A stretch of DNA of 64,000 nt from Desulfotomaculum sp. (GTDB taxonomy: Bacteria; Bacillota; Desulfotomaculia; Desulfotomaculales; Desulfallaceae): contig JAENYQ010000001.1 in assembly GCA_016841675.1 (NCBI GenBank), positions 100,291 through 164,290 on the forward strand, written 5' to 3'. The position numbers and the translations under genes are program-made. Shown in pieces: positions 4,082 through 58,984 of the stretch. Every line of letters begins with the position of its first letter. The stretch's first letter is position 1. The notes under the pieces were generated by a model, which made no database searches, had not been told where the DNA came from, and saw nothing but the letters and a program-made list of their open reading frames with translations.

Positions 4082-4858
4082 ATGCCGCCCAAAACAGTGA
4101 TTATTGACACGGTGCCCATATTCCCCAAAAAACTTCAAAAGGATTTACAAGAAGGGGAGGTTATTTGTACCACATGTAAAGGATTAGGCGTTGTTGTGGT
4201 TGACAACCAGTTTGGCTTAAGGGAAGAAGGGGAACTAATTGATTATAGTAATCTCTTTCCTTATAAGAAACAAAGTATCAGTTTTTGTCCAGACTGTTAC
4301 AGCGGTGTTAGAAAGTTATGTAAATATTGCGGCCAACCTGGGAGTAGGGGATACATCTACCCCGAGAGAAGTTGCCAGTGTGAAGGTGCTGCACAACAAC
4401 GCCGGGACGAACAATGGAAGAAAGGCATGGAGTTCTACCAAAAGGCGGAGAAGTTAACGCTTGCCCAGGCAATCGAACAGGGAATTGAAATGGTTTATAT
4501 AGATGGCGGCGAAAAATACGTTACCATCAACGACCTAGAAGAGGAAATTTACGAAATACTGTCTGACGATATTGAAAATGGGGTAATTGTTTACGCTACA
4601 ACGGCCAAGGTCCTTACACTAGATGCCGCAGAAATTGTTTCGGATGAATGTGAGAGTCAGGAGATGTACGAAGATTTTTGCAGTTCTATCCCTGACGCAT
4701 TAATTAGTGAACTTCAGGAACATATGGATTCTTTTTGCGAGGATTTAAAAAACAATAAAACTTATTGGGCGGATTATAGAATGGTTATTGTGGTGGATGA
4801 TTTGGTAGCCAAAATCAAAGAGGAAATCAAGAAAGAACGGCAGGAGGATGATGAATAG
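4082..4858 (+). CDS. zinc-finger protein of unknown function, 258 aa
   Basis: ATG after GGAGATGAAAA. The N-terminal third carries cysteine pairs CTTCKG, CPDC, CKYC and CQC, a DnaJ-like or zinc-ribbon arrangement probably holding two zinc ions. The remaining about 160 residues are acidic and helical with no known motif. The stop overlaps the next GTG start by one base (TAGTG), which implies translational coupling. The function is unknown; it could bind nucleic acid or protein. Confidence 0.65.
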   Translation: MPPKTVIIDTVPIFPKKLQKDLQEGEVICTTCKGLGVVVVDNQFGLREEGELIDYSNLFPYKKQSISFCPDCYSGVRKLCKYCGQPGSRGYIYPERSCQCEGAAQQRRDEQWKKGMEFYQKAEKLTLAQAIEQGIEMVYIDGGEKYVTINDLEEEIYEILSDDIENGVIVYATTAKVLTLDAAEIVSDECESQEMYEDFCSSIPDALISELQEHMDSFCEDLKNNKTYWADYRMVIVVDDLVAKIKEEIKKERQEDDE

Positions 4859-5115
4859 TGTCAACCGATTTAAACAGTTACACCAAACAAATCGAGGCCC
4901 GGAGCGCCGCCTTAAAGCGCATGGAAACTGCCCGGGTTAAGGCCGAAAGCGATAAGGAACACGCTGAAAAAAGGTTGGAAGAATTACATGCCGAAGCCAG
5001 GGCGCTGGGTGTGGAACCGGAGAATATCGAGGCCGAGATTGAAAAGTTGAAGGCGGAGATTGAAGCGGATCTGAAACTTACGGCAAGCTTAATACCTGAC
5101 GACTACAAACGGTAG
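4858..5115 (+). CDS. small coiled-coil protein, 85 aa
   Basis: GTG start overlaps the previous stop, with AGGAGG upstream. The product is almost entirely charged helix (Ala/Glu/Lys-rich heptads such as AESDKEHAEKRLEELHAEA), a coiled coil with no catalytic motif. Because it sits between the two SbcC halves it could be a connector or an arm-associated subunit, but that is inference from position only. Confidence 0.6.
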   Translation: MSTDLNSYTKQIEARSAALKRMETARVKAESDKEHAEKRLEELHAEARALGVEPENIEAEIEKLKAEIEADLKLTASLIPDDYKR

Positions 5116-27002: not shown

Positions 27003-27577
27003 TGAGTAAAAAAATCGTTGGCATTGATGCCAGTTTAACCGGGACCGGGATTTGTACTATGTGTGTTGGTGAAGAGTTGCTTTTTGTTAATGATGATAAA
27101 TGTCACACTTCCATAATTAAACCATTTATTAAATCCGGCCCGGAGCGTCTAATTGAAATCCGGGACCGAGTGTTTAATTTTATCGTGGATGCTGACTTCG
27201 TTATCCTAGAAGGTTACTCATTTGGCAGTAAGGGCGCCGGAGTATTCCAGACGGCGGAGCTTGGCGGCGTCCTGCGAGTGCTGATACATGAGCAGGGTAA
27301 ATGGTTGGTTGTGGTTGCGCCTACCCAATTAAAAAAATTCGCTACTGGTAAGGGCAACAGCAAGAAGGAAGAAGTAAAACTGGGCGTCTTTAAGCGCTGG
27401 GGCGTCGAATTTAAGACGAATGACGAAACTGATGCTTTCGTACTGGCAAAAATTGGGGAAGCACTCTTTGACGAGGTGGTCCGGGACAGACTTACCAAAC
27501 CGCAGCGGGAAATAATTGACCAGTTGATGGGCGAAGGTGCAAAAGTTGTCAAGGGTAAGAAGAAAGGGGCTAAGTGA
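27002..27577 (+). CDS. ruvC: RuvC-like Holliday junction resolvase
   Basis: RNase H-fold active-site residues are visible: Asp9 in IVGIDASLTGTG, Glu70 in VILEGYSFG, and Asp141/Asp144 in NDETDAFVL. A basic GKGNSKKEEVK lies between, as in RuvC. The length of 191 aa is close to RuvC (about 170). It would cut four-way DNA junctions made during recombination before packaging. The symbol is given by family; a phage-specific subgroup is likely. Confidence 0.82.
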   Translation: MSKKIVGIDASLTGTGICTMCVGEELLFVNDDKCHTSIIKPFIKSGPERLIEIRDRVFNFIVDADFVILEGYSFGSKGAGVFQTAELGGVLRVLIHEQGKWLVVVAPTQLKKFATGKGNSKKEEVKLGVFKRWGVEFKTNDETDAFVLAKIGEALFDEVVRDRLTKPQREIIDQLMGEGAKVVKGKKKGAK

Positions 27578-43191: not shown

Positions 43192-44292
43192 ATGGCAAGA
43201 CCTGCCGATATTGCCCTCAGTTTTGACCTCTTTAAAAAAGCACGTCGGGATAAGTTAACCCTTTCCCAACTCTTAGAGAAAGAGGATCCGTCCAGTGAAT
43301 ACGGGGCTAATGAAAAACTGGATGCATTCGAGCGCCAGTTAAAGCGCTTTGACATTAAAACCAAATCGAACGATAAATTCGGCATCTACGCTGACACTGT
43401 AGATAAATTCTACCTAACCGAAGAATCTAAAGTTTTATTCCCGGAATACATTTCCCGGGTAGCCAGAGAAGCCATGGTCAATGAAAGTATCTTACCCTGG
43501 CTGATCGCTATCACTACCCCCATCGACGGAACGACTTATGAACCGTTTTATGTTGATGACCAACCAACCAAGCAAAGCAAAAAGCGCGTCACTGAGGCGT
43601 CCGAGCTGCCCCGGTGCAAAATCACTGGGCGAAGCACGTCCATCAAGCTTTATAAATATGGCCGTGCCATTGAGGCATCTTACGAGGCCATTCGCCGCAT
43701 GAAAGTGGACATGCTGGCCCTGCACGTTCGCCGCATTGCCATGCAAGGCAACCTGGACAAGGCCACTGAAGCACTGGCAGTTATTGTTGACGGTGACGGC
43801 AACGCCAACACCGCTGCCCAAAACTATCGCCTAAATGCGGATCTTGATGGCGTCGTCGCAAACGGCCTGGACTACACTTCCTGGATGAAGTGGCTAATGA
43901 ACTTCTATCCCTACAATTGTAAAGTAATTATTGGTGGCCAGGATGAGCTTTTAAACATTCTGACCCTGCAAATGCCTAACATCAACCCTCTGACTCTACT
44001 GGCCATGCTGCAAAGTGGCCAACCGTTAGACATTAGGGTCAAACTGGCGCAGGATATCTTTAATACCGTAACCCTGGTTTATCTGCCCGATGCCAGCACC
44101 GACTATGCCAACAAGTTAATCGGTATCGATAATCGGTACGCCTTGGAATACGTCACCGAGATTGGCTCGGATATTAGCGAGTCTGAAAGGTTCGTTCTGA
44201 ACCAGACTTCGGTGTTAACAGTTTCCGAGAATAACGGTTTTGCAACCATGTTCCCCAGACTGGCAACCAAAACTCTGCAGTTGAACGCTTAA
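43192..44292 (+). CDS. major capsid protein
   Basis: ATG after GAAAGGAAG. The 366-aa product has the size and position of an HK97-fold capsid protein: an N-terminal charged helical arm, ISRVAREAMVNESILPWLIAI, then a central GRSTSIKLYKYGRAIEASYEAI region and a beta-rich C-terminus (YALEYVTEIGSDI... FATMFPRLATKTLQL). It forms the capsid shell. Confidence 0.82.
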   Translation: MARPADIALSFDLFKKARRDKLTLSQLLEKEDPSSEYGANEKLDAFERQLKRFDIKTKSNDKFGIYADTVDKFYLTEESKVLFPEYISRVAREAMVNESILPWLIAITTPIDGTTYEPFYVDDQPTKQSKKRVTEASELPRCKITGRSTSIKLYKYGRAIEASYEAIRRMKVDMLALHVRRIAMQGNLDKATEALAVIVDGDGNANTAAQNYRLNADLDGVVANGLDYTSWMKWLMNFYPYNCKVIIGGQDELLNILTLQMPNINPLTLLAMLQSGQPLDIRVKLAQDIFNTVTLVYLPDASTDYANKLIGIDNRYALEYVTEIGSDISESERFVLNQTSVLTVSENNGFATMFPRLATKTLQLNA

Positions 44293-47416: not shown

Positions 47417-48862
47417 ATGCCGGGTGCATGGGCTTATGTATTAGCTAATGATTATACCGATGCTAGATTAAAAGAATCTGGCATTAAAAAGTATACTGCC
47501 ATATTCAGTGGTTCCAACCCTGCAGGAGTGCGAGCAGATGACGCTGTAGGCATGATTGCGAATGCAGCGGTTGATGATGCAGTGGTTATAAATGATTTTG
47601 ACGGTGTGCCGTTTTTTAACCGTCCAATGTGCAATGTGTATCACGATGCCGAAGGAAAACCGCACGTAATGGCGTATCGCGGGGAACCCGGATTTGCCTT
47701 TGACGGTGGAACGTTCCCCCCTTATGCTGACCATGGGGAAACGTTTTACGAATGTACACCTTGTGCGTGGAATGGGTCTTACGATGCCCCCAGCGTGACT
47801 GGCACGCCAAGTGAAGGGTATGAACTGTTCGAAATATTCCCAGACTGGAACACAAAAGTTTATTTACCCGCTTATTGGATGTCTACAGTTGACCTGAAGG
47901 CCACATCCAGGAGCGGCACAGTCCCTGATTACAACTCGGTAAATGGGCACATGGATGCTGCCAGAACTTATAACGAAAACGCCCACACGGAAACCATGGT
48001 GGCGCACATGTACGAATACGTTCTGCAACTGGTTGAATTCGCAACTAGGGATTTGCAACTGGTGATGATGGGCGCATCTACGCTATCATATAATAGCGCT
48101 ACCGACTTATCTACTGTTGCGGAAACCGGGGTAAATAGGGTCATCGTAGCAAACGCTACAGCTGATAAGTATGTTGTTGGTCAGTCAATAGTAATCGGTA
48201 CGTCGCAAAACGGCATCCAAATTGCTGACAGGGTAAACATAACAGCTATTGATGTTTACGATGCAGAAAACAAAGCAATTTATTTCAGCGGAGATGCAAA
48301 GGACATAACCGTTGGGTGCTATCTGTCGTCTAGGGCTTGGAACAATGGTGCAACGGACATTGTAGTGGCTTCTAGCGGTTCGCCTGGGAGCAATACAAGC
48401 GGGAAATACCCCTGCATTTGGCGCGGCAAGGTTGATCCATGGGCAGATGCATATTCAGCAATTTGTGACATTCTGATACAGCGTGCCGGAGCCGGAACGG
48501 TAGAAGATCCCTATGTTTATACCCCGCACTACTTGAGTGACCCGCGAAAGTATGCGGCAGGCGTCATTACTGCAGATTATGTCGGGCTTAGATACACGCT
48601 GCCTGATGTAGACGGTTACGCTAAAACGCTTGGTTTTGATTCTCGGTTTAATTTTGCGGCCCTGACCACCGAGGTTGGTGCAAGCAGCACAACCTATTTG
48701 GCTGGGTACTACTATTATCCAAGATACGATGTGTGCGTGGTCTTTGTCGGCGGCTACTGGTACCTTGGGCGTTATTGCTCTCCGGTGTACTTCCTCTGCG
48801 GCATTCACCCGTCGTCCTCGGACATCTCTCGCCTCGCGCGCCTTTTTGTTACCCGGTCTTAG
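47417..48862 (+). CDS. DGR variable protein, C-type-lectin-fold C-terminus, 481 aa
   Basis: ATG with GGAGGTG. The N-terminal about 300 residues belong to a structural or receptor-binding protein of unknown fold. The C-terminal about 170 end in the variable region VCVVFVGGYWYLGRYCSP, YFLCGIHPSSSDISRLARLF. GG-x-W, SPVYF and R-LARLF form the conserved frame of DGR C-lectin domains such as Mtd. Ten positions are codons that are AAC/AAT in the template. The gene lies in the virion module, so it is likely a host-recognition or surface display protein. Confidence 0.88.
   Translation: MPGAWAYVLANDYTDARLKESGIKKYTAIFSGSNPAGVRADDAVGMIANAAVDDAVVINDFDGVPFFNRPMCNVYHDAEGKPHVMAYRGEPGFAFDGGTFPPYADHGETFYECTPCAWNGSYDAPSVTGTPSEGYELFEIFPDWNTKVYLPAYWMSTVDLKATSRSGTVPDYNSVNGHMDAARTYNENAHTETMVAHMYEYVLQLVEFATRDLQLVMMGASTLSYNSATDLSTVAETGVNRVIVANATADKYVVGQSIVIGTSQNGIQIADRVNITAIDVYDAENKAIYFSGDAKDITVGCYLSSRAWNNGATDIVVASSGSPGSNTSGKYPCIWRGKVDPWADAYSAICDILIQRAGAGTVEDPYVYTPHYLSDPRKYAAGVITADYVGLRYTLPDVDGYAKTLGFDSRFNFAALTTEVGASSTTYLAGYYYYPRYDVCVVFVGGYWYLGRYCSPVYFLCGIHPSSSDISRLARLFVTRS
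48731..48847 (+). repeat. DGR variable repeat (VR), 117 bp
   Basis: VR matches the template repeat at 48948-49064 over 117 bases (offset 217) with 15 differences. At every difference the template has A. The observed changes are A to T (8), A to C (4) and A to G (3). The 3' end shared with the template (CGCCTCGCGCGCCTTTTT) is unchanged and corresponds to the initiation-of-mutagenic-homing region; sequences diverge immediately after it. Confidence 0.95.
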
Positions 48863-48869
48863 CGGGGGT

Positions 48870-48889
48870 TTGGGGGCAGCGGCCCCCAA
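48870..48889 (+). promoter_or_regulatory. hairpin/cruciform after the variable repeat
   Basis: TTGGGGGC and GCCCCCAA form an 8-bp stem around a 4-nt loop AGCG, 22 bases after the end of VR and just past the stop codon of the variable protein. In the Bordetella phage DGR a short-stem, 4-nt-loop hairpin in this place increases homing; this element is in the equivalent position. Confidence 0.75.
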
Positions 48890-48947
48890 TAATGTTCTTT
48901 AATAAAACTGTTTTTAAGATAAATAGCTTATAGGGATTAGGTGTGCA

Positions 48948-49064
48948 GTGTGCGTGGTCTTTGTCGGCGGCAACTGGAACAATGGGCGTAATTGCTCTCC
49001 GGTGTACTTCAACTGCAACAATCACCCGTCGAACTCGAACATCAATCGCCTCGCGCGCCTTTTT
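48948..49064 (+). repeat. DGR template repeat (TR), 117 bp
   Basis: TR lies between the variable gene and the reverse transcriptase, same strand, and is not translated in a useful frame. It carries 23 adenines; 20 of them are the first two bases of ten AAC/AAT codons when read in the variable gene frame, so mutagenesis can never make a stop there. Upstream and downstream flanks differ from VR. Confidence 0.95.
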
Positions 49065-49209
49065 TATAAAAACATTGCAAGTTTTTTTAGGCACACCTAA
49101 TTCCTTACCCCTTGGTAAAAATTGTTGTAACGGCAGGGGTTAGTAAGAGGGTAATTTGTAAATTATCCTGCCCAACATCCTTGAAACTATAAAAAAGCCT
49201 GGAGATAAA

Positions 49210-50418
49210 ATGCACTCATATAACGTTGACGATAGGCTAAAAGACCGTGCAATCATTGAAGAAGCTCTTATCAAAACCTGCAAAAGTAAAAGAAAGAAGA
49301 AAACTAGGTCTAACTCAAAATACAAAAAAGCGCAATATATACTATCTCACCTTGATAAATACGTTGAAAAGACGCTTGAGACTGTATTGGCGTTTGAAGC
49401 CATGACAAGAGCAGGAGAGCGTGGTGAGAAAATAAATCCAGAGATACTTAAAAAAGCATACAAGCCGAAGAAATGTGTTCCCTTTATTATTAAAGATGGT
49501 GCGAGTAAAAAGGTAAGAGAAATAACAAGCGTGCCACTGTTCCCAGACCAAGTAATTCACCAACTTATTATAATAGCTGCTCAGCCTGTGTTTATGCGTG
49601 GAATGTACGAATATTCCTGCGGCAGTATCCCGGGCAGGGGAATACACAAGGGCAAGAAATATATTGAAAAAATCATAAACCACCACCGTAGGCACGATAA
49701 ATCAGCCATTAAATACGGGGTGCAGCTGGATATTACAAAATGTTATCCAAGCATTTCTCACAGTCACCTAAAGGGGCAGTTGCGTAAAAAGTTTAGGGGT
49801 AAATTATTTACATGGCTAACCTTTGCAATTATTGATAGTTATTGCTTTACCGTTGTAGATGGTGAGCCGGTTGGTTTACCTATTGGATATTCTACAAGTC
49901 AATGGTTATGTAATTTCGAATTAACATCCATAGATAGTGTGGTAAAAGAGAAGTTAAAAATTAAGCATTATGTGCGTTATATGGATGACATGATTTTCTT
50001 TGGAAGAAACAAAAAGAAGTTGCATCAGGCAGTAGATTTAATAGTTTCATACGCTGCTTCTATAGGGCTGAAGATTAAACGCAATATGCAAGTATTCCGA
50101 TTCGATCATATTAACAAACAAGGAGAACGCCGGGGTCGCGCCCTCGACTTTTTGGGGTTTCGCTTTTTTAGAGATAAGATCATATTAAGAAAGCGCCTTG
50201 CTTTAGCAATTAGAAGGGCAGTCAAAACAATAAGCAAAATGAGAAAGGTTACTGCGCATGCGGCATTGTCATTAATGTCTCGTCTTGGTTGGCTAAGGCA
50301 CTGCAATTCATACAACTTCTATCAAAAGTACGTAAAGCCGTATATCAATATCAGAAAGTTAAAGGGGGTAATCCGACGTGAAAGCCGAGAGCACAGTAAT
50401 GCCAGTTGCGCCGTATGA
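49210..50418 (+). CDS. DGR reverse transcriptase, 402 aa
   Basis: ATG after TGGAGATAAA. Motifs: KKVREITSVPLFPDQVIHQL (RT1-2), YGVQLDITKCYPSISH (RT3, catalytic Asp), LPIGYSTSQWLCNF (RT4, the IGxxxSQ form special to DGR enzymes), then HYVRYMDDMIFFG (RT5, YMDD, about 257-260) and a C-terminal thumb. The 402-aa length is typical. It copies the template RNA with A-specific errors, which then replace VR. No Avd-like helical accessory gene was recognised beside it. Confidence 0.93.
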   Translation: MHSYNVDDRLKDRAIIEEALIKTCKSKRKKKTRSNSKYKKAQYILSHLDKYVEKTLETVLAFEAMTRAGERGEKINPEILKKAYKPKKCVPFIIKDGASKKVREITSVPLFPDQVIHQLIIIAAQPVFMRGMYEYSCGSIPGRGIHKGKKYIEKIINHHRRHDKSAIKYGVQLDITKCYPSISHSHLKGQLRKKFRGKLFTWLTFAIIDSYCFTVVDGEPVGLPIGYSTSQWLCNFELTSIDSVVKEKLKIKHYVRYMDDMIFFGRNKKKLHQAVDLIVSYAASIGLKIKRNMQVFRFDHINKQGERRGRALDFLGFRFFRDKIILRKRLALAIRRAVKTISKMRKVTAHAALSLMSRLGWLRHCNSYNFYQKYVKPYINIRKLKGVIRRESREHSNASCAV

Positions 50419-50731
50419 AATTGAATATGACGGTGAGTGGGCAGTCATAACGTTTTTTGAAAACGTGGTGCCCGTAGCGGTTGAAGAAGACGAAGCGCAA
50501 AAATGGGAGTACGATGAATACCGTTTGCGGATTAAAAATCGTGACAACTTGATAGCCACCCTCGATAGTCATTACGCCGATTGGGTTGACTTTGCCAAAG
50601 CTAGTGAGAACGTGGTGCCGGAAGAAACAGATAGAGAAAAGATTGCCAGGCTGGAAAAAGAGAAGGCGGAGTTAGATGGTGTTATAGGTGACATGGTACA
50701 AGTCTTGGTGGACAAGGGGGTGATCTGGTAA
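50378..50731 (+). CDS. small virion-region protein with coiled coil, 117 aa
   Basis: GTG with AAAGGGGG upstream overlaps the RT gene end by 41 bp. The product starts VKAESTVMPVAPYEIEYDGEW, has a Glu-rich middle, and ends in a helix EKIARLEKEKAELDGVIGDM. This helix resembles the C-terminal coil found in phage tail and tail-fibre-adjacent proteins. An Avd-like role is not supported: Avd is a four-helix bundle rich in basic residues, and this protein is acidic. Confidence 0.55.
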   Translation: MKAESTVMPVAPYEIEYDGEWAVITFFENVVPVAVEEDEAQKWEYDEYRLRIKNRDNLIATLDSHYADWVDFAKASENVVPEETDREKIARLEKEKAELDGVIGDMVQVLVDKGVIW

Positions 50732-50966: not shown

Positions 50967-51818
50967 TTGGAAGTGATTTCCATTAAGTTTACAGAAGCAT
51001 GGTCGATATACGAAATGGATAAAAAACTGCTAAATTATTCCAAGCACACAATGAAGGGGTATGGGTTACAACTTAAACTCATATCCAGATACCTAAATGA
51101 TATGGATATAGGATCCGTGACTTACGAACAGCTTAAATTTTACCTTGCAGCGCAAAGTCACCTGAAGCCGTCCAGCGTGGCCCACCGAATAAGATTTATT
51201 CAGTCGTTTTTCCGATGGGCCGTTGACGAGGGCCACATATCCAAAAACCCGGCGGTCAGGTTGCGTGAACCAAAATTAGGGCAGAGGATCCCCAAGTTTC
51301 TCACCGAGGAAGATGTAGAAACACTTCGCGAAGCCTGCTCTACGCCACGAGAACACGCAATCATTGAGTTTCTCTACACCAGTGGATGCAGAATCGGTGA
51401 GACTGTGGCCTTGGATAAACTTGCAATCAACTTTCAAAACAACTCAGTTATTGTCCATGGTAAGGGCGACAAAGACCGGGAGGTCTACTTTACAACCAAA
51501 TGCCGGATATGGCTAAAAAAGTATCTTGAATCACGCAGGGACAACGACCCTGCTCTTTTTGTTACCGAACGAGCGCCGCGGCGAATATCAATCTCACAAA
51601 TGCGGGGCATTGTCAAAAAAGTAGCAGACCGGGCTGGAATTGATGCTAACGTTTATCCGCATCGGCTTCGCCATAGCTTTGCTACACACTTACTAAACAA
51701 TGGTGCGCCTATGGAAGCAATACAGTAACTCATGGGCCATGCAAAGGCTGAAACTACCCAGGTGTACGCCCAGTTGTCAGGTGAGCGCCGCAGGGAATTA
51801 TACAAGCGATATTTCTAA
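50967..51818 (+). pseudogene. XerC-like tyrosine recombinase interrupted by an in-frame stop
   Basis: The TTG-started frame has a SAM-like core-binding domain (1-90), Arg142 (GCRIGE), Lys166 (HGKGDK) and His232/Arg235 (HRLRHS). It then meets TAA at 51726-51728, right after MEAIQ. The frame continues LMGHAKAETTQVYAQLSGE to a second stop at 51816-51818, carrying His258 and the nucleophile Tyr267. XerC-like proteins normally read IQ(E/D)LLGHA, so one base change (for example GAA to TAA) fits. Without readthrough the product is catalytically dead. Confidence 0.85.
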
Positions 51819-54658: not shown

Positions 54659-57600
54659 ATGCCTACAACGACAGGAACAACCACAGGCAATACTACAAAA
54701 CTTTTAGGTTCCTTAATGTTTAATCTGGCCCCCCTGGAAGCTAACATGAGACGGGTTGACATGATTACCCGCTACATGTCCCAGGCTGCCGAACGAGTTG
54801 GACGCAATTTTCGGCAGGCTAACTTTTTAAGTATTGATCCGCAAAACTTGGCCATGCAGGAAAGGCTAGTAAAGCTAAAAAATACAGAAGCATTAACTCA
54901 GCAACGAATTGCAACTGCAAAGCTCAAAGAGGCCCAAACGAATAAGGTAAACCTACAAGTTGAAATACAGCGGGCTACCATTCAACAAAAATACGCTCAA
55001 GCCGGACAAATGGCCCTTCGCACAAAACAAATGGAAGCCGATCTTCAAAACAAGCTTGCTGTCGCTGAAAATCGTCGATTGCAAATTGCCATGCAGCGGC
55101 TAAAAATAGAACAACAAATGCGCATCTTGGCACAACAACAGCAAGGCGGAGCAGGCGGGACTGGCGGACAAGATTATACTATTCTTGGCGGTTTAGAACA
55201 TAGAATGGGCTGGTTTTTTAGCTCCATGATGCTATTTGGCTCGGGTGCCGTTTTAAGTGGTATTTCCAAAGCCATGGGTGATGTGGAGATGGGCATGATT
55301 GAGATTGCCCGTATCCAAGATGATGTGACGTTTAACTTCGAGGAAATGCGGCAATCGTTGATCGACCTTGGCAAGGAATATGGTCAACAATGGTCCGTGG
55401 TGCACGATATCGCCCTGCGATGGTCCCAGGCCGGTCTTGACACTAGGGATACTTTAGAAGCTACTAGGGCGTCATTATTAGCTTTAAATACCGCTGAATT
55501 AGACGCTCAACAAAGCACGGTTTCATTAATTGGTATTATGTCCCAATGGGACCTAGAAGTAACCGATCTGCAAGGTGTTATCGACAAGATAAATATTACC
55601 GCTGACAATTTCGTAGTTACGTCGCAGGATTTGGTGGATGGCCTGCTTCGTTCTTCCGGGTCAGCTCGGGTCTTGGGCATGTCCTTAGAAGAAACTATTG
55701 CTATATTAACTGCTATGCGTGAAGCTTCAGGCAGGACGGGCCGAGAAGTTGGCAACGCCCTCAATTCAATACTTTCTTTCATGCAGCGCAATACCGCCCT
55801 TGATACGTTCGAAAAAATGGGCATAAATGTTTGGGCTGATGAAACAAAGACCCAATTTAGAAACTTGATTGAAATTTTTGATCAGGTGGCTGTCGGTTGG
55901 GGTACCATGGGCGATGAACTTAAGGATGGATTCGTTCAGGCCGCCAATGAGGCAGGACTATTTACAGAAGAAATGGCCGGTGTGGTAGGTGCCCAAGAGG
56001 AATGGGATGACCTGCAAAAGCGCGATGTTTCCCAGGCTATGGCCGGCATCTATCGCAGAAATTACCTTTTGGCATTGCTTCAAAATTGGTCCACGGTCCA
56101 AGAAGTTTTAAATGGTTTAGTAGACGCCCAGGGGTACAGTTTGCGTGAGAATGAACGTACCATGGAAGCGTATCAGAAAAGGGTCGAGGCATTGCGTATG
56201 GCCATAACCGAGTTAGCTGTGGCTATAGGGGATGCCGGGTTGTTGGATACCATGAAGGGCTTGGTGGACGGTACCCGGGAAGGTGTAGAGGCTTTTAGGG
56301 AACTGCCGCAACCGGTTCAGGAATCCATTATTGCATTACTTGGCATATCTGCGGCACTCATGGGCGTTAACCTTATCTTTAGGGTTTTCTTGGGCATGGG
56401 CATTGGTGGAATGCTAATTAATTTAGCCGCCAGGATTGCCGGGGTGACAGCCTCTACACTTGGCCTTAGTGCAGCATTGAATATACTTGCCAAAAATCCT
56501 ATGGTTTTAGTCATTGGAGGCATAGCGGCCCTTACGGCAGCAGTTATTGCCTACAATAGCCACCAGGCTAAAGCGGTTGAAAATGCCAAGGAAGCGGCTA
56601 GTGACGCCATAACTCACAGTAACAATATCTCTAATTTGGCCAAAAGATACGAGGAACTTTCAGAGAAGGTAAACCTTAACGAGTCAGAGCAAACCGAACT
56701 TCAAAATACCATGAATGCTTTGGCGGAAATATTTCCTGGTATTGTTGCTCAATGGGACGCTCAGGGAAATGCTATTCTATTCAACAACGATGCACTCCGG
56801 GATAATATTGCCCTAGCTAAAGAAGCAGCGGCAGCTAATGCTAGAGATTTTTATGTAAAAGCCATGGACAAGAAAAGTAGTATAGAAAAGAAAATCAACA
56901 GTCTAAAATCAGTTGAAGATGCAATGACTGCTCCCGGCGCAATACCAACGGATCTAAAGGCTGCACCACTGCCCATCATTAACCCCAAAGAAATGGCTAA
57001 ATTGCGCGATGAGCTTGATGCGGCAAAAAGAGATATAGAAACAGGTCTTGGTTTAGTGAATCAGACATATATTGGCGATTATGCATGGTATGGTGATTCC
57101 GGTAAAGGTAGTGGTGGCGGAAGCGCCAATAATAGCAAAACCAATAATACCACTCCAAAGCCTACCACTCCAAATACAGCCACCCCCAATGTGGGAGCAT
57201 TGGATTTTCTTAATAACCTAGAAATCCAGGCCCAAAGAGCAGGCCAAGCATTAGAGTATAACAAACTAATGCTAAATTTACTCACTAACGCCATAGGTGA
57301 TGGCATTCCAACCACACAGCAGATGGCTAACGTAACGCAAAATTACAACGGTCAAATAGAGTTACTAACCCAACATCAATCCATATTGGCCAAAGAAAAT
57401 ACACTCTTAACCGCTAAAATAAACTCTACCGGTGACATTACCGGCGAATTAACTAATAAGTTATTAGATAATAAAAATGCCATACTTCAGGATCAGTTGC
57501 AAATAGGTTCCCTAAGAAAAGAAATGGCAGACTTCCAATCCACCATAGACAACATAAACTTCGACCAGGCTAATGCCGCTCTGCAACACTGGACCAGCAT

Positions 57601-58984
57601 GGGCGTATATTCCGTAGAGCAACAAATAGCGGCCCTGCATCGGCTGGCAACCGTTAAAAAACTCACTACCGAAGAACAGCGACAACTTGACATGCAAAGC
57701 TTTAACCTTTACAAAAAATTAATCGGTGACCAAGTTTCTCAGGTTCAAAAAGCTTACCAAAGTCGTTTAAATATAATCGAAGATCATTACCGGGATCGTT
57801 TAAAGACGATTGAAGATGAAGCGGACGCCGAAATTGCCATCATTCAGCGTCGCATAGATGCTTTAGATGAGGAAGATAACCTTAACGACCGCGAAGAGGC
57901 TCGTACTGAACATGATGAAAAAATTAAAAGCCTCATCGAAGAACAGCAATACCACGAACTGCGTACTGGCATTGAACATGAAAAATCGCTTGCCGATATT
58001 AAAAAGCAGATAGATGAGGAAAACCGTCGCTGGGAAGCGCAGCAACAAGATTGGCAGCGAGAAGATGAAAAACGCAATCTTCAAGAACAAATTGACGACA
58101 TCAAAGATGCCAACGATGAAAAGAAGCAAGAACTTGAAGATTATTACAATGACGCTAAAGCTGAACTTGAAGATTATTACAATGACGCCATGGATGTTAT
58201 GAACGATGCTACCCAGGATATGCTTGCCGGCCTAGCCGCCACCGATGGGGCATGGTTTGAGCAAGGCAAAAAATGGATTGAAAAATTAATCCAAGGTATG
58301 GAAGATGGCGGCGTGAATTTGCCAGGTGGGTTTGATGATTTCTGGGATGATGTGAAAGATGAGTCCAGCAAATTGCCGACCAATGATAGCGAAAAAGACG
58401 ATGACAACAAGGGCTCATCTCCCGGCGGTGCCACATCTGGTTGGCAAATTTTCACTAACTCTTCCGGATTTAAATACAAAGTATCCCCGGATGGGAATAT
58501 TTTTAAAAACATCAACGATGGTCGTGGGGATGTTTATGTTCCAGCATCAAACTATAAATATCTTGAAAATGACCCCGCCGGCATTAAGGCGCTGGCCGCC
58601 GCTAAAGCGGTAAAAAGTTACGATATTGGTGGTTCTATCCTATACGACCAAATAGCGCAACTGCATGCCAATGAATATGTATTAAATGCTCGAACTGTGG
58701 ACAAGCTTGGCGGTATGGATAATGTGGAAAAGTTGGTGGCGAAGGTTCAGAATCCCAATTGGGACGCACCAAACATGTCCACTGGGGGGATGTATTCTGG
58801 TGGTATGGTATTGTTTGACCGGGCAGCAGATCGCATCGTGGCGGCCATTGAGGGACGCATGGGCATCAGTTTTGATAAGCTAGTTAATATTGAGCATGTT
58901 GGCTTTGAGGATGAAGCAGACATGGAAATATTTAATCGAAGTTTGGCCAGGAACGTAAGAACTTTGTCTGTGGGGCGTGGTTAG
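54659..58984 (+). CDS. tape measure protein, 1441 aa
   Basis: ATG after AGGGGGTG. Domain order: an N-terminal Gln/Lys-rich coiled coil (about 70-170), the TP901-type core (about 180-500, with LHDSSG-like NSILSFMQRNTALDTFEKMG), hydrophobic segments (about 555-640, NPMVLVIGGIAALTAAVIAY), a Thr/Asn/Pro-rich linker (about 815-850), and a long charged coiled coil (about 1025-1180) with a duplicated ELEDYYNDA. The length predicts a tail of roughly 200 nm by the usual 1.5 A per residue rule. It sets tail length and helps DNA entry. Confidence 0.88.
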   Translation: MPTTTGTTTGNTTKLLGSLMFNLAPLEANMRRVDMITRYMSQAAERVGRNFRQANFLSIDPQNLAMQERLVKLKNTEALTQQRIATAKLKEAQTNKVNLQVEIQRATIQQKYAQAGQMALRTKQMEADLQNKLAVAENRRLQIAMQRLKIEQQMRILAQQQQGGAGGTGGQDYTILGGLEHRMGWFFSSMMLFGSGAVLSGISKAMGDVEMGMIEIARIQDDVTFNFEEMRQSLIDLGKEYGQQWSVVHDIALRWSQAGLDTRDTLEATRASLLALNTAELDAQQSTVSLIGIMSQWDLEVTDLQGVIDKINITADNFVVTSQDLVDGLLRSSGSARVLGMSLEETIAILTAMREASGRTGREVGNALNSILSFMQRNTALDTFEKMGINVWADETKTQFRNLIEIFDQVAVGWGTMGDELKDGFVQAANEAGLFTEEMAGVVGAQEEWDDLQKRDVSQAMAGIYRRNYLLALLQNWSTVQEVLNGLVDAQGYSLRENERTMEAYQKRVEALRMAITELAVAIGDAGLLDTMKGLVDGTREGVEAFRELPQPVQESIIALLGISAALMGVNLIFRVFLGMGIGGMLINLAARIAGVTASTLGLSAALNILAKNPMVLVIGGIAALTAAVIAYNSHQAKAVENAKEAASDAITHSNNISNLAKRYEELSEKVNLNESEQTELQNTMNALAEIFPGIVAQWDAQGNAILFNNDALRDNIALAKEAAAANARDFYVKAMDKKSSIEKKINSLKSVEDAMTAPGAIPTDLKAAPLPIINPKEMAKLRDELDAAKRDIETGLGLVNQTYIGDYAWYGDSGKGSGGGSANNSKTNNTTPKPTTPNTATPNVGALDFLNNLEIQAQRAGQALEYNKLMLNLLTNAIGDGIPTTQQMANVTQNYNGQIELLTQHQSILAKENTLLTAKINSTGDITGELTNKLLDNKNAILQDQLQIGSLRKEMADFQSTIDNINFDQANAALQHWTSMGVYSVEQQIAALHRLATVKKLTTEEQRQLDMQSFNLYKKLIGDQVSQVQKAYQSRLNIIEDHYRDRLKTIEDEADAEIAIIQRRIDALDEEDNLNDREEARTEHDEKIKSLIEEQQYHELRTGIEHEKSLADIKKQIDEENRRWEAQQQDWQREDEKRNLQEQIDDIKDANDEKKQELEDYYNDAKAELEDYYNDAMDVMNDATQDMLAGLAATDGAWFEQGKKWIEKLIQGMEDGGVNLPGGFDDFWDDVKDESSKLPTNDSEKDDDNKGSSPGGATSGWQIFTNSSGFKYKVSPDGNIFKNINDGRGDVYVPASNYKYLENDPAGIKALAAAKAVKSYDIGGSILYDQIAQLHANEYVLNARTVDKLGGMDNVEKLVAKVQNPNWDAPNMSTGGMYSGGMVLFDRAADRIVAAIEGRMGISFDKLVNIEHVGFEDEADMEIFNRSLARNVRTLSVGRG

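Follow-up and report, generated by a model that had tools for sequence, protein, structure and literature searches.

The diversity-generating retroelement (DGR) of Bordetella phage BPP-1 (mtd/avd/TR/brt; NC_005357) is marked by a template repeat (TR) and a variable repeat (VR) related through adenine-only mutagenesis, with the accessory gene avd situated between the VR and the TR. In this system, 20 of the 23 mutable TR adenines are found in AAC context, and AAC and AAU codons are known to give up to fifteen amino acids and no stops (PMC12875486). The VR is followed by a hairpin, a feature for which the published range in phage DGRs is 7-10 bp and 4-34 bp (PMC3240598). An Avd-like gene co-occurs with 62% of DGR RTs (PMC8934634); DGRs without Avd are therefore already known, and Avd is not universal.

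The locus described here lies in a window of 64,000 nucleotides, which is part of contig C106 of a 3.84-Mb Desulfotomaculum genome. It shares with BPP-1 the TR/VR pair, the adenine-only changes, the template codon context, the post-VR hairpin and a homologous reverse transcriptase (RT), whereas no Avd gene was found, and it is almost certainly a phage-borne, Avd-less DGR. The features are collected in Table 1.

Table 1. Features of the DGR locus, in window coordinates.
Feature	Coordinates	Strand	Remarks
Target gene, 481-aa tail/receptor-binding protein with variable C-terminus	47417..48862	+	phrog matches, predicted fold
Variable repeat (VR)	48731..48847	+	in frame; stop codon 12 nt past VR end
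Invariant GC-rich VR 3' end CGCCTCGCGCGCCTTTTT, candidate IMH	48830..48847	+	identical in TR 49047-49064
8-bp GC-rich hairpin with 4-nt loop (TTGGGGGC-AGCG-GCCCCCAA)	48870..48889	+	22 nt past VR
5' arm of TR-closing RNA stem, AGGGATTAGGTGTGC	48932..48946	+	covarying
Template repeat (TR)	48948..49064	+	10 AAY codons
3' arm of TR-closing RNA stem, GCACACCTAATTCCT	49091..49105	+	covarying
Rfam RF03021 RT-18 RNA, DGR spacer domain between closing stem and RT gene	49106..49197	+	
DGR-type reverse transcriptase, 402 aa	49210..50418	+	motifs LPIGYSTSQW, YMDD

The Target Gene and Its Prophage Setting

The target protein matches the profiles phrog_5302 (tail protein, 7.8e-18) and phrog_17147 (2.1e-30). 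Its AlphaFold model (mean pLDDT 76.7) was found to resemble TaqVP (5vf4), a DGR variable protein from Thermus aquaticus, with a Z score of 18.9 over 252 aligned residues (rmsd 3.1 A), far above the next-best chain at Z 8.0, and with a Foldseek E value of 7.6e-5. The predicted fold is accordingly that of the C-type-lectin-like DGR variable proteins. A sequence search of the PDB gave no match for the target protein, which shares 12% sequence identity with TaqVP, so that the relationship was disclosed by the predicted fold alone.

The DGR is embedded in a head and tail module of phage type, which includes the gene of a major head protein (43192-44292) and a tape measure gene with PhageMin_Tail (54659-58984). 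Within the tail module, a tyrosine recombinase ORF (50967-51728) stops at an in-frame TAA, while the frame remains open on to 51818, and from its sequence the integrase looks to have been interrupted by a nonsense change. In addition, a 117-aa gene (50378-50731) overlaps the 3' end of the RT gene by 41 nt. Homologues occupy the same position in about 30 relatives, and no match to its product was obtained among 50,697 phage records. The full-length members of this family bear the C-terminal motif YRQALRDIPxQxGFP..WP, which we take to be that of tail-fibre-assembly chaperones, and the product is possibly chaperone-like. Because of this chaperone-type motif, the gene is not claimed as a substitute for Avd.

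The Repeat Pair

The first-pass annotation of this DNA had described a VR that departs from its TR at adenines only, and a recount bears it out in every particular. Over 117 bases aligned without gaps, there are 15 mismatches, each of them at a TR adenine (TR composition A23 C34 G29 T31). Twenty of the 23 TR adenines sit in ten in-frame AAC or AAT (Asn) codons, and 15 of these 20 are altered in the VR, where the ten variable codons now specify Y, Y, L, Y, L, G, I, S, D and S. The remaining three adenines, which belong to TAC, CAC and ATC codons (VR coordinates 48788, 48806 and 48824), are the same in both repeats. The chance that all 15 differences would land on 23 adenines of 117 bases is 1.6e-13, and the chance that they would also spare the three non-Asn adenines is 0.03. 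The homology ends sharply on both sides, with identity dropping to background beyond the 117 bp; position -1, A in the TR and T in the VR, represents an ambiguous sixteenth change. The VR is read in frame 0 of the target ORF, at the 3' end of the coding gene. When the host genome was searched with the TR, this VR was the only other strong match, and an exact-pattern scan of viral contigs revealed no second copy of the pair.

Two direct repeats lying side by side might also have arisen if the 3' end of the gene had simply been duplicated and the copies had then diverged through ordinary mutation, but this origin is ruled out by the adenine-only pattern, whose probability under ordinary mutation is the 1.6e-13 given above, and the presence of all the associated DGR parts also speaks against it; its likelihood is regarded as negligible. 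Less readily dismissed, although still unlikely, is the reading that the DGR is no longer active and that the TR/VR pair is the fossil of past homing. The interrupted integrase ORF nearby suggests that decay may have set in elsewhere in the prophage, and the locus is represented by a single sequence. In opposition to this, there is not one non-adenine mismatch across the 117 bp, and both the RT and the target frames are intact; VR/TR pairs with adenine-only changes have been taken as a sign that any inactivation is very recent (PMC3521204). Current activity of the DGR is presumed from the likeness to BPP-1.

The GC-rich 3' end common to the two repeats is a candidate IMH by analogy with BPP-1. 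The hairpin beyond it is GC-rich and has a 4-nt loop after the VR, as in other phage DGRs, although its AGCG loop does not fit the GRNA consensus (PMC3240598). At the same site, a stem of at least 7 bp with a 3-5-nt loop was detected in 49% of 69 relatives, as against 0.7% of shuffles.

Template Codon Design

Scans of genome and viral contigs brought together about 160 relatives of the RT. Supplemented by phage loci and host-family loci, they gave a set of 116 different TR/VR pairs, that of the window among them, which share the adenine bias described above. It had been proposed in the first-pass annotation that the template is built for safe diversity, and this reading is supported, since no codon of the TR can be converted into a stop by changes at adenine. 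The principle itself is not new, having been published already (PMC12875486). With the TR adenines placed almost only at bases 1 and 2 of AAY codons, ten residues would be randomised, stops would never arise, and the scaffold would be little affected. Among the 116 surveyed TRs, 86 are likewise free of any stop-capable codon. The share of coding adenines residing in AAY codons has a median of 71% across the survey, in which four TRs lack AAY codons, probably because an incorrect frame was chosen for them, and amounts to 87% in the window TR.

Moreover, the depletion of avoidable adenines sharpens the proposal, as the invariant residues have been stripped of adenines too. The three non-Asn adenines are obligatory, for Tyr, His and Ile are uncodable without A. 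In the other positions of the 29 non-Asn codons, no avoidable adenine was observed, where the codon usage of the phage would lead one to expect 6.7 (P = 4.7e-4), while every 39-codon window elsewhere in the target gene holds at least five. The relatives behave similarly: over 63 systems, the mean number of avoidable adenines was 1.7 where 8.5 were expected, and 62 of the 63 fell below expectation. The locus thereby illustrates how strictly a template may be tuned, with adenines placed where change is wanted and gone wherever the genetic code permits.

The enrichment of AAY might alternatively reflect protein-level selection for Asn, or for the widest choice of amino acids, rather than the avoidance of stops. 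AAY reaches 15 amino acids, and one sequence cannot separate stop avoidance from breadth. Nevertheless, the same adenine depletion at synonymous positions of invariant residues, in the window and its relatives alike, indicates that the template restricts the sites of change beyond a mere choice of Asn, and AAA and AAG codons hold only 43 adenines in the 116-TR survey, compared with 2108 in AAY. Selection for Asn or for breadth is therefore considered possible but doubtful, and safe diversity is retained as the preferred account of the template.

A special protection of the TAC, CAC and ATC adenines was considered and rejected, because relatives mutate non-AAY adenines nearly as often as the others: 268 of 490 non-AAY coding adenines (55%) are changed, versus 740 of 1256 in AAY codons (59%). 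This near-equality implies that the confinement to AAY is a property of the template and that the enzyme has no strong preference; the three unmutated adenines of the window probably owe their state to chance or position.

A side observation concerns the second base of these codons. Across 66 TR/VR pairs of relatives, G is commoner and C and T are rarer in the VR at AAC than at AAT, with site-stratified odds ratios of 2.44, 0.37 and 0.40, respectively (p < 1e-3). Since AAC and AAT reach the same amino acids, the difference points to a context bias of the RT. The BPP-1 enzyme, bRT, misincorporates G opposite adenine more often where the adenine stands in NAC context (PMC12875486), a bias which, read as A-to-C in the VR, apparently runs opposite to the pattern of this family. 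Natural VRs are filtered by selection, and the second-base bias is accordingly offered as a lead only.

The Reverse Transcriptase

The RT, the only one of DGR type in the host genome, matches phrog_1423 (1.2e-80) and RVT_1 (1.5e-14). A profile constructed from it and six relatives found the bRT chain 8ub7 as its best match among solved structures (E 8.5e-46); group II-type RTs followed at 8e-29. This match, along with the [LI]GxxxSQ and YMDD motifs, assigns the enzyme to the DGR class. The NCBIfam group II RT model gave 77.5 bits against a cut-off of 300, and the antiviral (DRT) model Drt3a 66 bits against a cut-off of 200; a retron, DRT or group II identity is ruled out by the family cut-offs and the bRT match. 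The PADLOC matches of the RT come from a table without curated cut-off and denote general RT similarity.

The Template RNA and the Apparent Absence of Avd

The RNA between the TR and the RT gene scored 51.1 bits with the RT-18 model, above the gathering threshold of 41.3, and is thus a member of RF03021. The closing stem of the window comprises 15 bp, and RT-18 begins at the very next base. RT-18 was encountered at the same site in other VR-TR-RT loci. In further scans, RT-18 or RT-4 was present in 18 of 20 Avd-less loci, whereas the 20 Avd-type loci yielded RT-14 or Phage_DGR in seven cases and RT-18 in none. The RT-4, RT-14, RT-18 and Phage_DGR RNAs are all located between TR and RT (L020, L010, L014, L187 and others), a spacer nature that the Rfam RT-n names do not reveal.

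Letting the TR flanks fold freely into duplexes is too permissive for a clean test, and covariation of the closing stem was assessed instead with a column-anchored procedure in 65 non-redundant loci. The 5' and 3' flanks were aligned separately, the arms were not chosen by pairing, and the conserved motif of each flank alignment served as the anchor for 16 column pairs. With their own partners, the arms formed 804 standard pairs; swapping partners between loci lowered the number to 634 (sd 11; z = 15). At the eight middle, variable positions, 73% were paired versus 50% (z = 14). Furthermore, a G-U pair at the fourth stem position is retained in 54 of the 65 loci, which indicates pairing of RNA rather than DNA.

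A comparable stem was predicted in 45 non-redundant Avd-containing DGRs (27.5 with own partners against 19.8 swapped, p = 1e-23). It measures mostly 12-13 bp, with the 3' arm mostly 51-63 nt past the TR, while in the Avd-less set the stem has about 16 bp and the 3' arm a median distance of 22 nt, so that the Avd-less closing stem stands about 36 nt nearer the TR. In BPP-1, where a duplex is predicted, only a 6-bp GGGAAA/UUUCCU helix was made out by eye in the TR flanks. With a closing stem predicted in both sets of DGRs, the question of how cDNA synthesis starts and stops in the Avd-less ones becomes directly testable.

Searches with two Pfam models and with a small custom profile detected no Avd gene of the kind expected in a BPP-1-like, Avd-dependent cassette. 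The bAvd model PF22296 was positive in BPP-1, G005 and G006 and below cut-off in G002; it gave nothing for the genome from which the window comes, nor for any of 11 phage records belonging to the VR-TR-RT class. Of about 190 loci, only 4 showed an Avd match to the custom profile. An accessory protein unrelated to Avd may be present instead. Far from the DGR, contig C83 of the same genome carries a 23S-rRNA intervening-sequence-type protein (27022-27321; PF05635), a distant relative of Avd. Tentatively, and with less than even expectation, the locus may be placed in a class of DGRs that need no Avd and rely on a compact template RNA. The missing 36 nt or so would then be the portion that serves Avd, and the priming and the limits of mutagenic cDNA synthesis would be set by RNA and RT alone. 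Were Avd truly dispensable here, a smaller unit for targeted protein diversification would be available. The finding also ties RT-18, an Rfam RNA of unstated function, to Avd-less DGRs.

Several loci with multiple repeats were noticed as well. One of them (L149, 3110-3732) possesses three tandem TRs 147-151 nt apart, each with an apparent 5' arm of its own, and only the RT-proximal TR accounts for the VR by adenine changes alone (15 of 15), the other two reaching 85% and 79%. That the VR is explained solely by the TR adjoining the 3' flank hints that stem and spacer pick the template. Another locus (L055) has two TRs, of which the RT-proximal one gives the better fit, and a further one (L086) has two VR-like copies and one TR.

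Proposed Mechanism

The following course is considered the most likely for the locus, with priming, termination and homing (PMC12875486, PMC3240598), as well as the surface position of the variable residues, carried over from BPP-1. The TR would be transcribed within a structured RNA, in which the closing stem is followed directly by the RT-18 domain, and both elements might fold the RNA onto the RT. The neighbouring enzyme would then synthesise cDNA from near the TR 3' end, misincorporating opposite adenines, and the copy may be terminated by the stem or by sequence upstream of the TR. The mutated cDNA would subsequently replace the VR of the tail gene, presumably with guidance from the GC-rich 3' end that both repeats share and from the post-VR hairpin, and the replacement would alter the receptor-binding surface.

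Comparison with Known Systems

The nearest loci are L028/L109 (Clostridiales GWF2_38_85), L110, L111, L112 and L108, whose RTs are 62-67% identical and in all of which RT-18 is present; for L028/L109, L110, L111 and L112, RT identity is 62-65%. Four of them (L028, L110, L111 and L112) have target proteins 49-65% identical and also contain the closing stem. Each carries its own TR/VR sequence, except that L108 is without a separate TR: at about 4770-4920, its VR passes directly into the TR 3' flank and RT-18, an arrangement that represents either VR/TR recombination or assembly collapse.

Among phages, the same VR-TR-RT order without Avd is seen in Butyrivibrio phage Arawn/Closwp03, Lactobacillus phage LBR48 and Faecalibacterium phage FP_Epona, whose RTs are 31-39% identical to the one described here, whereas their targets and TR sequences differ. 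LBR48 carries RT-18, with no TR/VR pair in the stretch examined, and Epona carries RT-4; adenine-only TR/VR pairs occur in Butyrivibrio Closwp03 and in Epona. The TaqVP system resembles the locus in predicted target fold, although the target here, unlike TaqVP, is a phage tail protein. In BPP-1, the spacer RNA between TR and RT is Rfam RF03022 (Phage_DGR) rather than RT-18. Taken as a whole, the locus is a textbook DGR, a further case of a system already well known and not a new kind, and the compact Avd-less template RNA is the sole part that might be new.
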